Under the pieces are notes generated by a model, which searched no databases, was not told the DNA's origin, and saw nothing but the letters and a program-made list of their open reading frames with translations. The position numbers were made by a program, and so were the translations under genes. DNA of 64,000 nucleotides from Hyphomicrobiales bacterium (GTDB lineage: Bacteria; Pseudomonadota; Alphaproteobacteria; Rhizobiales; Beijerinckiaceae), in NCBI GenBank assembly GCA_900466745.1, contig UBNE01000018.1:1-64000 (forward strand), given 5' to 3'. Of this stretch, positions 15,196-59,132 are shown in pieces. The first letter of the stretch is position 1, and every line of letters starts with the position of its first letter.

Positions 15196-15583
15196 CCAGT
15201 CGGCCGGACGGCCGCTCTCGCTCGCGAGGGAGGAAAGTCCGGGCTCCACGGAAACACGGTGCCGGATAACGTCCGGCGGGGGCGACCCCAGGGAAAGCGC
15301 CACAGAGATCGAACCGCCGCCGGTTTCGGCCGGCGGTAAGGGTGAAAAGGTGCGGTAAGAGCGCACCGCGGACCCGGCAACGGGGACGGCACGGCAAGCC
15401 CCACCGGGAGCAAAACCGAATAGGGACGATGCTTCCCGCGCAAGCGGGAAGGGGCTGGTTTCTGAGCCTTGTCGTCCGGGTTGGTTGCTCGAGGCGCGCA
15501 GCGATGCGCGTCCCAGAGGAATGGCCGTCACGTCGGGGGAGCGATCTCCCGGCCATCCAGAACCCGGCTTACAGGCCGGCTGG
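15196..15583 (+). ncRNA. rnpB: RNase P RNA component (class A)
   Basis: This is the catalytic RNA that matures tRNA 5' ends. Conserved blocks appear in the right order: GAGGAAAGTCCGGGCTCC (15227-15247 area), the CACAGAGATCGAACC segment, GGTAAGGGTGAAAAGGTGCGG with GGTAAGAGCGCACC, AGAGGAATGGCCGTC, and CAGAACCCGGCTTACAGGCC near the 3' end. The ends were placed from helix P1: CCAGTCGG at 15196-15203 pairs with CCGGCTGG at 15576-15583. A length of about 388 nt is normal. The exact ends could differ by a few bases. Confidence 0.96.
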
Positions 15584-15625
15584 CACCTTCGCTCGCCGAC
15601 GCTTCGGGCGCTCTTTCGGTATCCG

Positions 15626-54199: not shown

Positions 54200-56032
54200 T
54201 CACAGCGGCCGGCAGGCATCCTCCAGCCAGGCCCTGGCCTCGCCCGCGACCAGCGGGCCGATCTTCTCCAGCACCTTGGCGTGATAGGCGTCGATCCAGG
54301 CGATCTCGCCATCGTCGAGCAGGTTCACATCGATCAGCGCCCGCTCATAGGGCGTCCAGGTGATGGTCTCGAAGCCGTAGATCGTGCGCTCGGCGCCGGG
54401 GATCCTGCGCTCCTCGACGACGAGCAGGTTCTCGATGCGGATGCCGTAATGGCCTTCCTTGTAATAGCCCGGCTCATTGGAGAGGATCATGCCCGGCTCC
54501 AGCGGCGTGGTGCCGAGCTTGGAGAGCCGCTGCGGCCCCTCATGCACCGAGAGATAGCTGCCGACACCATGGCCGGTGCCGTGGTCGAAGTCGAAGCCGC
54601 CCTGCCAGAGCGGCAGGCGCGCGAAGGCGTCGAGCTGCGCGCCGGAGGTGCCCTTGACGAAGACCAGCCGCGAGATCGCGACATGGCCCTTGAGCACGCG
54701 GGTATAGCGGTCGCGCATCTCGGGCGTCGGCGCGCCAATCACGATGGTGCGGGTGATGTCGGTGGTGCCGTCCTCGTACTGCCCGCCCGAATCGACCAGG
54801 AAGATGCCCGGCCCGATCGCCCGGTTGCTCGCCGCCGTCACGCGGTAATGCGGCAGCGCCGCATTGGGCCCGGCGCCGGCGATGGTGGTGAAGGAGACGT
54901 CCTTGAGCAGGCCGGTCTTCAGCCGCTCGTTCTCCAGCGCCGCGACGGCATCGATCTCGGTCAAGCCGCCCTTCGGCGCCTCGCGCGCGAGCCAGGACAG
55001 ATAGTTCGCCATCGCCGCGCCGTCGCGCAGATGGGCGGCGCGGGTTCCGGCGAGCTCGGCCGCGTTCTTGCGCGCCTTCATCAGGGCGATCGGATCGGCG
55101 CCGGCATCGGGCGTGCCGCCGGCCTCGCGGATCAGCGTCGCCAGCGCCGAGGCCGCCGTCGCCGCGTCGAGCCGGACCCTGGCCTTGGCCGCGCCGAGCT
55201 TCCGCAACTGCGCTTCGAGCTCGGCCGGGGAGGCGATCTCGCCAACCGCGCCGATGGCGTCGCCCGCCTCGTTGGTGATCTTCTCCGGCGCGAGGAAGAC
55301 GGTCGGGCGGCCCTCGCGCGGGACGATCGCATAGCCGAGCGGCAGCGGCGTGTGCTCGACATCGCCGCCGCGGATGTTGAAGGTCCAGGCCAGCGCATGC
55401 GGGTCGGAGACGACGAGGGCGTCGACCTTCGCATCCGCGAGCGCCTTGCGGATGCGCGCGAGCTTGGAGGCGGCGTCCTCGCCGGCGTAGTCGGCACGAT
55501 GGGCCTTGACCGGGGCGGAAGGCGCGGCCGGGCGGTCGCTCCAGAGCGCGTCGATTGGGTTTTTCGCGACGGGGACCAGAGAGCCGCCGGCCGCCGCGGC
55601 CGCTTTCTCCAGCCGGGCGACGCCATCGACGGTGTGCAGCCAGGGATCGTAGCCGAGCTTGCCGCCGGCCGGCAGGTTCTGCTCGACCCAGCGCTCCAGC
55701 GGCGACTCCTCCATGCGGACCGGGGTCACCACCCTGGTGTCGGTCTGCTCGGCCGACTGGATGGTGTAGCGACCGTCGACGATCAGCGCCGCCCTGTCGG
55801 CCAGCACCACCGCATTGCCGGCCGAGCCGGTGAAGCCGGTCAGCCAGGCGAGGCGGGCCATATGCGCCGGCACATATTCGCCCTGATGCTCGTCGGCGCG
55901 CGGCACGACGAAGCCGTCGAGCCCCTGCGCCGCCAGAGCCTGCCGCAAGGCGGCGACGCGGCCGGCGACCTGCGCCGGGTCGCTGGGCTCGGTGAAGGAC
56001 TGGAAACGGCAGCTCGGCATCGACTGGCTCAT
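54200..56032 (-). CDS. pepP: Xaa-Pro aminopeptidase (aminopeptidase P, M24B)
   Basis: The 610-residue metallopeptidase removes N-terminal residues before proline. Two creatinase-type N-terminal domains (about 20-300) precede the C-terminal pita-bread domain with metal ligands in FLVDSGGQYEDGTTDITRT (two Asp), FDHGTGHGVGSYLSVHEGP (His), LSNEPGYYKEGHYGIRIEN (Glu) and further C-terminal. I chose the ATG at 56032 (MSQSMPSCRF); ATGs at 56020 and 56062 are alternatives. The three-domain length near 600 is typical of the family in alphaproteobacteria. Confidence 0.93.
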   Translation of the reverse strand: MSQSMPSCRFQSFTEPSDPAQVAGRVAALRQALAAQGLDGFVVPRADEHQGEYVPAHMARLAWLTGFTGSAGNAVVLADRAALIVDGRYTIQSAEQTDTRVVTPVRMEESPLERWVEQNLPAGGKLGYDPWLHTVDGVARLEKAAAAAGGSLVPVAKNPIDALWSDRPAAPSAPVKAHRADYAGEDAASKLARIRKALADAKVDALVVSDPHALAWTFNIRGGDVEHTPLPLGYAIVPREGRPTVFLAPEKITNEAGDAIGAVGEIASPAELEAQLRKLGAAKARVRLDAATAASALATLIREAGGTPDAGADPIALMKARKNAAELAGTRAAHLRDGAAMANYLSWLAREAPKGGLTEIDAVAALENERLKTGLLKDVSFTTIAGAGPNAALPHYRVTAASNRAIGPGIFLVDSGGQYEDGTTDITRTIVIGAPTPEMRDRYTRVLKGHVAISRLVFVKGTSGAQLDAFARLPLWQGGFDFDHGTGHGVGSYLSVHEGPQRLSKLGTTPLEPGMILSNEPGYYKEGHYGIRIENLLVVEERRIPGAERTIYGFETITWTPYERALIDVNLLDDGEIAWIDAYHAKVLEKIGPLVAGEARAWLEDACRPL

Positions 56033-56217
56033 CTGGGAATCCGGTATGGCTGTGGTGCGCATGGTTGCGCCGCCGCCCCGCAAAGCGCCAGCCCCAAAGC
56101 GGCATGGGAGCCGTTCGCCGGACCGGCCGCGGCTGCCGCTTTGCCGGGCGATTGCCCATGTGTCATGCATCGCATGCGCGCGGACTGAGCGATGCTGCTG
56201 GCCGATATGCGGAAGGT

Positions 56218-56234
56218 GCATATCTCGCATATGC
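56218..56234. promoter_or_regulatory. Dyad GCATAT-N5-ATATGC in the pepP/small-gene promoter region
   Basis: A six-base inverted repeat with a five-base spacer lies in an AT-rich pocket 100 bp before the small gene at 56334 and 186 bp before pepP. The pattern suggests a dimeric regulator; I cannot name it. Confidence 0.4.
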
Positions 56235-56333
56235 AAAAACATCTTCTCGCAAGTGCGAAATGACTCCACTTTAGTCGTACAAGAGAACGAGGAAGCGACC
56301 GGGACTGTCCTTCGTTTTTTCGGAGATGGACCC

Positions 56334-56579
56334 ATGACCTATGTGCTGAACAACGCCGACGTGCTGCCCGTGCCGGTGATCGCCGAGAGCGGGGCGCTGC
56401 GTTCGGAGAAGCCTGGCCTGATGCGCCGGATCTATGACGCGATCATCGAAAGCCGGATGCGTTCCGCGGCCCGCGAGCTGCGCGCGCGCAACCTCCTCGT
56501 CAACGAGGCCGGGATCGTTCTCGGCGGCATTCCGTTCACGAGCCTGTCGAACGACGCCGCGCTGCCCTTCAACCGCTGA
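56334..56579 (+). CDS. 81-residue protein of unknown function
   Basis: The ATG at 56334 is preceded by GGAGATGGA. The protein starts MTYVLNNADVLPVPVIAESG, has a central Arg-rich helical part (about 28-52: MRRIYDAIIESRMRSAARELRARN) and a short end with VLGGIPFTSL. It has no membrane segment or cysteines. I do not recognise the family. A second small gene follows after 23 bases and a terminator beyond it, so the two form a unit divergent from pepP. The upstream region is AT-rich with a dyad, suggesting regulation. Confidence 0.65.
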   Translation: MTYVLNNADVLPVPVIAESGALRSEKPGLMRRIYDAIIESRMRSAARELRARNLLVNEAGIVLGGIPFTSLSNDAALPFNR

Positions 56580-56602
56580 CGCCCCGGCGCAGAGAGTAAC
56601 CC

Positions 56603-56731
56603 ATGATCGTCATCGCCAAGCATATCGTCGAGCGGATCGTCGATGCGGCGAAGTTCGCCGCCGCCGTCTGGCACGACGCCCGCAGCCTGCAGGCCGAAGC
56701 CGAGGCCAAATACGGCCATATCGAGTTCTGA
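56603..56731 (+). CDS. 42-residue small protein of unknown function
   Basis: The ATG at 56603 has GAGAG a few bases upstream. The product begins MIVIAKHIVERIVDAAKFAA and continues as one probable amphipathic helix, with WHDARSLQAEAEAKYGHIEF at the end. Codon use and GC match the genome. It lies 23 bases after the 81-residue gene and is followed by a strong terminator, which supports a real two-gene transcript. No known family was recognised. Confidence 0.55.
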   Translation: MIVIAKHIVERIVDAAKFAAAVWHDARSLQAEAEAKYGHIEF

Positions 56732-56782
56732 CGCCGAGAGGCGACGGCCTCGCACCCGGCTTTCGCAGCCGGGCGCATCAGG

Positions 56783-57730
56783 TCAGACAGGGCGGCGGGG
56801 CCTTTGGGCCGCGCCGCCCTTTTTCATGACCAGCGTCGCCCAGCCTTCGCGCAGCGACCGGCTCGCCAGCGCGACCCCCTGGTGCCGATAGGCCGCGATC
56901 ACGCCGGGGACGTCCATGGCGAGCAGGCCGGAGAGGATCAGCGTGCCGTCCGGCGAGAGCGCCCGCGCCAGGGCGGGGGCGAGGCGCCGCAGCGGGCCGG
57001 CCAGGATATTGGCGAAGATCAGGTCGAAATGGCCGGGCCGGTCGGCCTTGGCATGGCGCAGCCCGGGCGCGACATAGAGGTCGAGCGCATGCGGCGCGTG
57101 GTTGAGGCGGGCGTTATGCGCCGAGACCTCGACCGCGATGGCGTCGATGTCGCCGGCGACGACCTTGCGCTTGATCTGCTTGGCGAGCGCCAGCGCCAGG
57201 ATGCCCGTGCCGGTACCGACATCGAGCCCGCGGCGCGGACGGCGCTTCTTCAATTCGGCGTCGAGGGCGAGCAGGCAGCCGGCGGTGGTGCCGTGATGGC
57301 CGGTGCCGAAGGCGAGCGCCGCCTCGATCTCGATGGCGACGTCGTTGACCCGCACGGTGTCGCGGTCATGCGCGCCATGGACGAGGACGCGGCCGGCGCG
57401 CACGGGCTTCAGCCCGTCGAGGCTCGTCGCCACCCAGTCCTGCTGGTTCACCGTGGTGAAGGGCGTGCTGTCGATGCCGTCGCCGACGATCGGCCGCAGC
57501 AGGTCGCGCACCGCCTCCTCGTCCGGGTGGTGGGCGAAGTAGATCTCCACCTTCCAGGGTGCGTTGAGCGAGAGCGTGGTGACGCCTTCCTCGACCTCGA
57601 AGGACGAGATCGCCGTCTCGGTGGGGTCGAAGACCTCGCCCAGCAGCTCGGTCAGGGCGCGGGCCTTGTCGCCCGAGGTGGAGAGTTCGAGGACGGTCGC
57701 GACCGTCGCTGGCAGAAGGCCTTCGCGCAT
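56783..57730 (-). CDS. prmA: Ribosomal protein L11 methyltransferase
   Basis: PrmA trimethylates ribosomal protein L11 using SAM. The 315-residue protein has an N-terminal substrate-recognition part with QQDWVATSLDG, then EIEAALAFGTGHHGTT, the SAM motif GLDVGTGTGILALAL, DIDAIAVEVSAHNARLN and the catalytic DLIFANILAGPL. The last 12 codons overlap the terminator hairpin of the small-gene unit on the other strand. Confidence 0.95.
   Translation of the reverse strand: MREGLLPATVATVLELSTSGDKARALTELLGEVFDPTETAISSFEVEEGVTTLSLNAPWKVEIYFAHHPDEEAVRDLLRPIVGDGIDSTPFTTVNQQDWVATSLDGLKPVRAGRVLVHGAHDRDTVRVNDVAIEIEAALAFGTGHHGTTAGCLLALDAELKKRRPRRGLDVGTGTGILALALAKQIKRKVVAGDIDAIAVEVSAHNARLNHAPHALDLYVAPGLRHAKADRPGHFDLIFANILAGPLRRLAPALARALSPDGTLILSGLLAMDVPGVIAAYRHQGVALASRSLREGWATLVMKKGGAAQRPRRPV
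56789..56824 (+). terminator. Terminator of the small-gene unit, overlapping the prmA 3' end
   Basis: AGGGCGGCG (56789-56797) pairs with CGCCGCCCT (56812-56820), with an inner GGCC stem, followed by T5. On the + strand it ends the 56334-56731 transcript; on the - strand it codes for the PrmA C terminus. Confidence 0.75.
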
Positions 57731-58639: not shown

Positions 58640-58936
58640 CTATTCGGCGGCTGGCAGAAGGGCGACATCCGGCGCCGGAATCAGCGCGATCGCGAAATCC
58701 GCGATCTCCCGCGCGGCGTCGGGGTCGGCCTTCAATTCGCTCGGCGTGCGGGCGCGCGGAACGGCCTCGTTGTTCTCGCGCAGCGTTCCGATCCAGAGAG
58801 ACAGAGCTTCCGGGGCGTTCCGCAACGCCTCGTCGAGCGTGTCGCCGGCCGCGAAGCAGCCGGGCAGGTCGGGAAACCAGACGCCGACGGCATGGTCGGG
58901 GCCTGCATCCTCGATGATGGCGACGTAATGGGTCAT
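58640..58936 (-). CDS. hicB: HicB-family antitoxin
   Basis: The 98-residue protein has the HicB partial RNase-H fold, with HAVGVWFPDLPGCFAAGDTLDEAL and the following NAPEALSLW helix. The C-terminal part lacks a clear ribbon-helix-helix or helix-turn-helix, so it may neutralise the toxin without being a strong DNA-binding autoregulator. It starts one base after the stop of hicA, the toxin-first order usual for hicAB. Confidence 0.9.
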   Translation of the reverse strand: MTHYVAIIEDAGPDHAVGVWFPDLPGCFAAGDTLDEALRNAPEALSLWIGTLRENNEAVPRARTPSELKADPDAAREIADFAIALIPAPDVALLPAAE

Positions 58937-58937
58937 G

Positions 58938-59132
58938 TCAGTCGCGCGGCCAGCCCGCCTGCTTGTAGATCTTCAACACGAGGCCCGGTCCGAAATTCTT
59001 CTTCGGATGCGGCAGCACGATAGTGTCACGAGCGCCGGGCTTTTTGAAGACATGGTGAGAGCCGGCGACGCGCACGCATTCCCAGCCCTCGCGTTCCAGG
59101 CGGCGCATGATGTCGGCGCTGTTGTTGAGCAT
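58938..59132 (-). CDS. hicA: HicA-family mRNA interferase toxin
   Basis: The 64-residue toxin has a double-stranded-RNA-binding-like fold and cuts mRNA. MRRLEREGWECVRVAGSHHVF carries the GSHHVF motif (24-29) with the catalytic His region, and VLPHPKKNFGPGLVLKIYKQAG is the typical C-terminal half. Gene order and spacing with hicB support a functional pair. It lies just downstream of the uvrD-like gene on the same strand, with 142 bases between. Confidence 0.92.
   Translation of the reverse strand: MLNNSADIMRRLEREGWECVRVAGSHHVFKKPGARDTIVLPHPKKNFGPGLVLKIYKQAGWPRD

Follow-up and report, generated by a model that had tools for sequence, protein, structure and literature searches.

The window analysed here, a 64,000-nucleotide stretch of a Bosea-type genome, contains two short open reading frames on the + strand between two conserved neighbours. 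ORF1 (56334–56579) encodes an 81-residue protein with nine arginines, and ORF2 (56603–56731) encodes 42 residues predicted to form a single helix; the two genes are 23 nt apart, exactly as a preliminary description of this DNA had reported. That description also gave each gene a ribosome-binding site, which holds for ORF1 (GGAG, 56322–56325), but ORF2 has only a weak GAGAG (56592–56596). On the - strand upstream lies pepP (54200–56032), which by Pfam (Peptidase_M24 and Creatinase_N) is indeed an M24 peptidase of the aminopeptidase P type, divergent from the pair as first described. Downstream, the convergent prmA (56783–57730, - strand, with its stop at 56783; Pfam PrmA) encodes the ribosomal protein L11 methyltransferase. 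A T-tailed hairpin inside the 3′ end of prmA (56789–56824, + strand) is the likely terminator of the pair. Folding of 56728–56830 gave −64.1 kcal/mol (z −5.64), and a simple terminator scan did not return this hairpin. The hairpin of the claimed strong terminator is thus confirmed, but its T tail is not general, because a run of at least four T within 170 nt 3′ of ORF2 occurs in just 20 of 36 genus loci. Elsewhere in the window, Pfam identifies a HicA toxin gene (58938–59132) next to a HicB-like antitoxin gene (58640–58936), both on the - strand, and a class A RNase P RNA lies at 15196–15587 on the + strand.

The region between pepP and ORF1 carries several elements. These are an LTTR box, ATGCGGAAGGTGCAT (56207–56221); a first palindrome (56225–56236), which in the source genome is TCGCANNTGCGA with one change; and a second palindrome, TCGCAAGTGCGA (56247–56258), 22 bp after the first. 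They are followed by a possible −10 element, TTTAGT (56270–56275, + strand), assigned from its position, and by the predicted 5′ leader of the mRNA (56281–56333, + strand), whose start site is likewise inferred. A sigma-70 scan found no site in the ORF1 promoter region.

The preliminary description had reckoned with the chance that neither protein would have homologues in related genomes, which is not the case. Among 37 Bosea-type genomes (hereafter the genus, source genome included), searches found ORF1 in 36 and ORF2 in 34; in the three genomes where ORF2 was missed (G025, G030 and G033), a diverged 46-aa version is in place. The pair is present between pepP and prmA in 36 of the 37. One genome (G015, locus L064) has no ORF1 but keeps ORF2 and the beginning of the leader; drift there has affected the C-terminus of ORF2, the first palindrome and the far end of the leader. 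Third codon positions are the most variable in both ORF1 (n=33) and ORF2 (n=34), as in coding DNA, in a comparison that left out the three most diverged genomes. With locus L054 omitted as well, the median pN/pS is 0.53 for ORF1 and 0.48 for ORF2 (from 495 of 496 and 520 of 528 pairs, respectively), and both genes are under moderate constraint. ORF1–ORF2 is a real, probably vertically inherited two-gene small-protein operon that is paired across the genus.

DUF1127 (PF06568) comprises small arginine-rich proteins such as YjiS, CcaF1 and the small DUF1127 proteins of Agrobacterium. ORF1 matches no Pfam family at E ≤ 10, the PF06568 model included; its single NCBIfam match falls far under the cut-off (17.6 of 454 bits), neither ORF1 nor ORF2 has a match in PHROG or PADLOC, and a profile search of the PDB with ORF1 gave a best E of 0.12. 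Its composition, at 9 arginines in 81 aa (11%), can be set beside a DUF1127 family mean of 14% (PMC12501420). AlphaFold places a helix at residues 29–62 with low confidence (mean pLDDT 57.8).

The genomic address of ORF1 adds to this picture. All 111 order genomes yielded prmA, and the stretch past its end was read in 99; pepP was detected in 79 of these stretches and diverges from the stretch in all 79. Judged by eye, 50 of the 61 order pepP/prmA loci with at least 250 nt of room hold a small ORF, often DUF1127 or DUF1127-like, and the other 11 hold none. Elsewhere in the order, other families have small DUF1127-like genes in tandem at this address (L104, L118 and L144). The genus ORF1 profile matches 32 of 149 family genomes, in 14 of 43 genera (E ≤ 0.01), and 24 of the 857 ORFs in the order pepP/prmA regions (E ≤ 0.05). 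Of those 24, 21 are picked small ORFs, which come from 20 of the 50 regions; the remaining three belong to the same type of gene but lie at loci where pepP went undetected. An alignment of syntenic proteins was built from 31 of the 56 listed (25 were left out and some N-termini trimmed); PF06568 matches 9 of these 31 (E ≤ 0.1), and hhalign aligned the genus ORF1 profile with the alignment at 94.1% and E 1.2e-7, over 29 columns only. ORF1 resembles DUF1127 proteins in being short, arginine-rich and helical, in a first helix that aligns by profile, and in an address that holds PF06568 or DUF1127-like genes in other genomes of the order. It differs in that its C-terminal half, by eye, is unlike the LDDRxLxDIG part, so that the second half of DUF1127 is lacking, and in being paired with ORF2. 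Because the case is made by the pepP/prmA address and the first-helix alignment, without a Pfam match, we call ORF1 DUF1127-like rather than a PF06568 member, and treat it as a candidate diverged relative of these small arginine-rich proteins.

ORF2 is predicted by AlphaFold to be a single helix over residues 2–37 (mean pLDDT 87.8) and has no match in Pfam. By eye, an ORF of 34–46 aa directly follows the ORF1 relative in 14 of 24 family loci read (13 of the 23 outside the genus); the other ten show no ORF2-like frame there. Eleven of the family proteins in the ORF2 position align with the ORF2 profile (89.6%, E 1.9e-6, 22 columns). A direct search with that profile missed the ORF2-position proteins of the family outside the genus: it matched 8 of 149 family genomes, seven of them from the genus and the eighth within a 788-aa frame.

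The promoter region is conserved as a rigid array. Within the LTTR box, ATGC-N6-TGCA occurs exactly at 56207–56220, and on the other strand this reads TGCA-N6-GCAT, the LsrB motif upstream of nfeR1 in S. meliloti (about −72 to −57), which was checked by EMSA and point mutations (PMC10746234). A single match to the LTTR element in the window is not significant by itself (shuffle mean 0.44). Across the genus, the element ATGCRN5YGCAT is present in 36 of 37 ORF1 promoters against 0.16 in shuffles, and 31 of 37 loci carry the literature LsrB motif against 0.50, although such shuffles overstate the significance because genus promoters share ancestry. Across the order, 21 of 50 loci carry the literature motif (1.17 in shuffles), whereas a coding control yielded it in 0 of 50. 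One genus promoter (L042) lacks the element, and in another (L065) it is placed elsewhere. The distance from the element to the conserved leader block is 78 bp in 28 of 32 loci, 77–79 bp in 31 of 32 and 69 bp in the remaining one. An exact TCGCANNTGCGA palindrome lies at +40 from the element in 31 of 32 loci and at +18 in 20 of 32, and with up to one mismatch TCGCANNTGCGA is found in 36 of 36 genus promoters. The conserved unit is an array in which the LTTR box is followed by palindromes at +18 and +40 and then, at about +78, by a leader stretch. The preliminary description had instead pointed to a dyad, GCATAT-N5-ATATGC (56218–56234), in the AT-rich promoter region shared by the two genes. 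No other site in the window comes within one mismatch of it (shuffle mean 0.01), yet just 11 of 36 genus promoters have it in exact form. This dyad, which partly coincides with the LTTR box and with the first palindrome, is not the conserved operator. The broader proposal, that the two genes form a compact transcript under deliberate regulation, is supported by the genus-wide pairing and the rigid array.

A regulator that fits the LTTR box is encoded in the source genome. Here, trxB is followed by an LTTR gene whose best PDB match is 9HH1 (E 2e-112), deposited as LsrB of A. tumefaciens (PMC11975290), which makes it an LsrB orthologue. At E ≤ 1e-80, LsrB was found in 27 of 28 genus genomes scanned; the exception, G025 (L067), is a small, fragmented genome that keeps the ORF1–ORF2 pair. 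Directly after lsrB, a match to ar15 (AbcR; L217, 4665–4798) scored 29.4 bits (E 0.0054), below the gathering score of 40. The promoter region of this AbcR-like RNA is conserved in 27 genus genomes, all drawn from the 30 lsrB loci read. The LTTR element is present in 22 of these 27 abcR promoters at a fixed place, 30 bp before a TGYTGCATTGC box, and absent from the other five. In the source genome, subtraction places the start of the element 74 bp ahead of the ar15 match and equally 74 bp ahead of the ORF1 leader at 56281. Pairing between AbcR and the leader gave a duplex energy no better than shuffled sequences (59% and 68% of shuffles were as good).

Published work gives these matches a context. 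In Brucella, three DUF1127 genes are activated by VtlR (PMC12595884), as is atu1667 in Agrobacterium (PMC7486931); in S. meliloti, LsrB activates AbcR1 (PMC8844928). The Bosea-type genome resembles the VtlR/LsrB regulons of Brucella, Agrobacterium and Sinorhizobium in having an LsrB motif at about −65 from the inferred start, and LsrB beside trxB and an AbcR-like RNA. It differs from them in its tandem TCGCANNTGCGA palindromes and in lacking two sites described elsewhere: none of 37 genus promoters has the GCAT-N3-TG-N3-T box proposed for Brucella and Agrobacterium, and none of 36 has the VtlR 15-mer of Brucella (up to three mismatches). Across the order, that 15-mer occurs in 15 of 50 loci against 0.55 in shuffles. 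A further difference is that cysteine is absent from the source LsrB (L212, 2562–3482) and from the 28 readable copies of the 30 fetched (L218–L247), whereas LsrB of Agrobacterium and Sinorhizobium is described as a thiol redox sensor (PMC11975290, PMC10746234, PMC8844928). Taken on motif, spacing and gene neighbourhood, the ORF1–ORF2 operon most likely belongs to the LsrB regulon.

The strongest alternative is that a different dimeric regulator acts through the two TCGCANNTGCGA palindromes, with the LTTR box incidental or secondary. The palindromes stand in tandem, 22 bp apart (up to two mismatches), in 23 of 24 genus genomes scanned, being absent in G015, and the arrangement is nearly unique to the ORF1 promoter, with one extra site each in G013 and G048. 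Moreover, no such palindrome occurs in the lsrB–abcR stretch of the source genome or 5′ of its three other DUF1127 genes. What speaks for LsrB is that the LTTR element is placed as rigidly as the palindromes, fits an experimentally tested LsrB motif and recurs at abcR, and we consider the separate regulator unlikely, if still a serious contender. Across the order, TCGCANNTGCGA with up to two mismatches showed no enrichment (14 sites against 9.8 shuffled). One lead towards another regulator was pursued: a MarR-type gene has 5′ of it the sole other place in the source genome that fits TTCTCGCANNTGCGAA with no more than one mismatch, a TCGCA-N2-TGCGA-like site (L070) that is probably due to chance. 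The lead was dropped, because by our own estimate about 1.4 matches are expected by chance and the MarR-type gene has its own palindrome, TAAGCAGGCTTA.

The leader, too, is conserved. In 32 genus loci (a profile excluding L058 and the three most diverged), the 30 nt at 56284–56313 are nearly invariant, with a mean identity of 1.00 after rounding, above that of the coding parts; L040 carries one change, and the ORF1 leader of G025 (L067) lacks the stretch. A 25-mer from it (up to three mismatches) occurs once in the source genome and in 2 of 297 order genomes, the source and G153. The G153 copy, which sits upstream of a TerB-like gene, was taken as chance. By eye, some other genera of the family show a related core, GGAA-CG-CCGGG, in their leaders.

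Such a leader could work as that of S. meliloti duf1127-1 does, by attenuating transcription or translation, and the main control would then reside there rather than at the promoter. A leader attenuator has been described for this one DUF1127 gene (PMC12218461), and both are DUF1127-type genes with a regulatory-looking leader. In the genus, moreover, the near-invariant stretch lowers the predicted accessibility of the ribosome site in 31 of 33 loci (0.30 against 0.50). In the source sequence, however, no such drop is predicted (0.49 against 0.42). Judged by eye, the genus conserves no frame for an upstream ORF; folding of the leader shows no covariation and no unusual stability (z −0.42 and −1.03), and the genus has no conserved U-tract, on which ground an intrinsic attenuator was rejected. 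The S. meliloti leader is also reported at 279 nt (PMC12218461), as against about 53 nt for ORF1. Attenuation as the main control therefore seems improbable to us.

Since the conserved sites lie between pepP and ORF1, they might instead serve pepP; yet their spacing to the ORF1 leader is fixed, whereas the distance from the LTTR element to the projected pepP start ranges from 161 to 319, and we think this very improbable. That two short adjoining genes form a toxin–antitoxin pair is hardly credible for ORF1–ORF2, which has no match to a known toxin or antitoxin family in Pfam, NCBIfam, PHROG or PADLOC, occurs once per genome at a single address across the genus, does not look mobile, and in G015 has lost ORF1 yet kept ORF2.

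The reading we favour, and consider somewhat more probable than not, is an LsrB-activated operon in which ORF1 acts like a DUF1127 protein with ORF2 as its partner. Regulation by LsrB (= VtlR) is a well supported but unproven candidate within it; the functions of the two proteins are what we infer. LsrB would bind the LTTR box some 65–67 bp 5′ of the start site, with the two palindromes serving as activation sites, and would switch on ORF1–ORF2 alongside AbcR. PhoR is bound by small DUF1127 proteins, and RNA by CcaF1 (PMC12501420); the arginine-rich, helical ORF1 may likewise bind RNA or a sensor kinase (PhoR, for example), and the ORF2 helix would be its partner. The nearly invariant leader would add a post-transcriptional layer. 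More tentatively, and with the chances against it, the 30-nt stretch could be a new cis-acting RNA element, bound by the ORF1 protein or a partner RNA and feeding back on the operon, which would make this a self-limiting, LsrB-driven pair.

Among the papers of an open library listed for combinations of DUF1127, prmA, aminopeptidase P, LsrB and Bosea, none was on the ORF1–ORF2 locus by its title or abstract. The 'unknown function' of the preliminary description is too weak a verdict, as ORF1 is tied by locus and profile to DUF1127-like proteins and its promoter carries an LsrB motif. Phosphate uptake, RNA stability and stress have all been connected with small DUF1127-type proteins, which are easily overlooked when they fall outside Pfam. 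A fixed pepP/prmA address combined with an LsrB box would let diverged members be found across the order and would tie them to a regulator studied in both symbionts and pathogens. The nearly invariant leader, in turn, offers a clean test case for how such genes are controlled after transcription has started.
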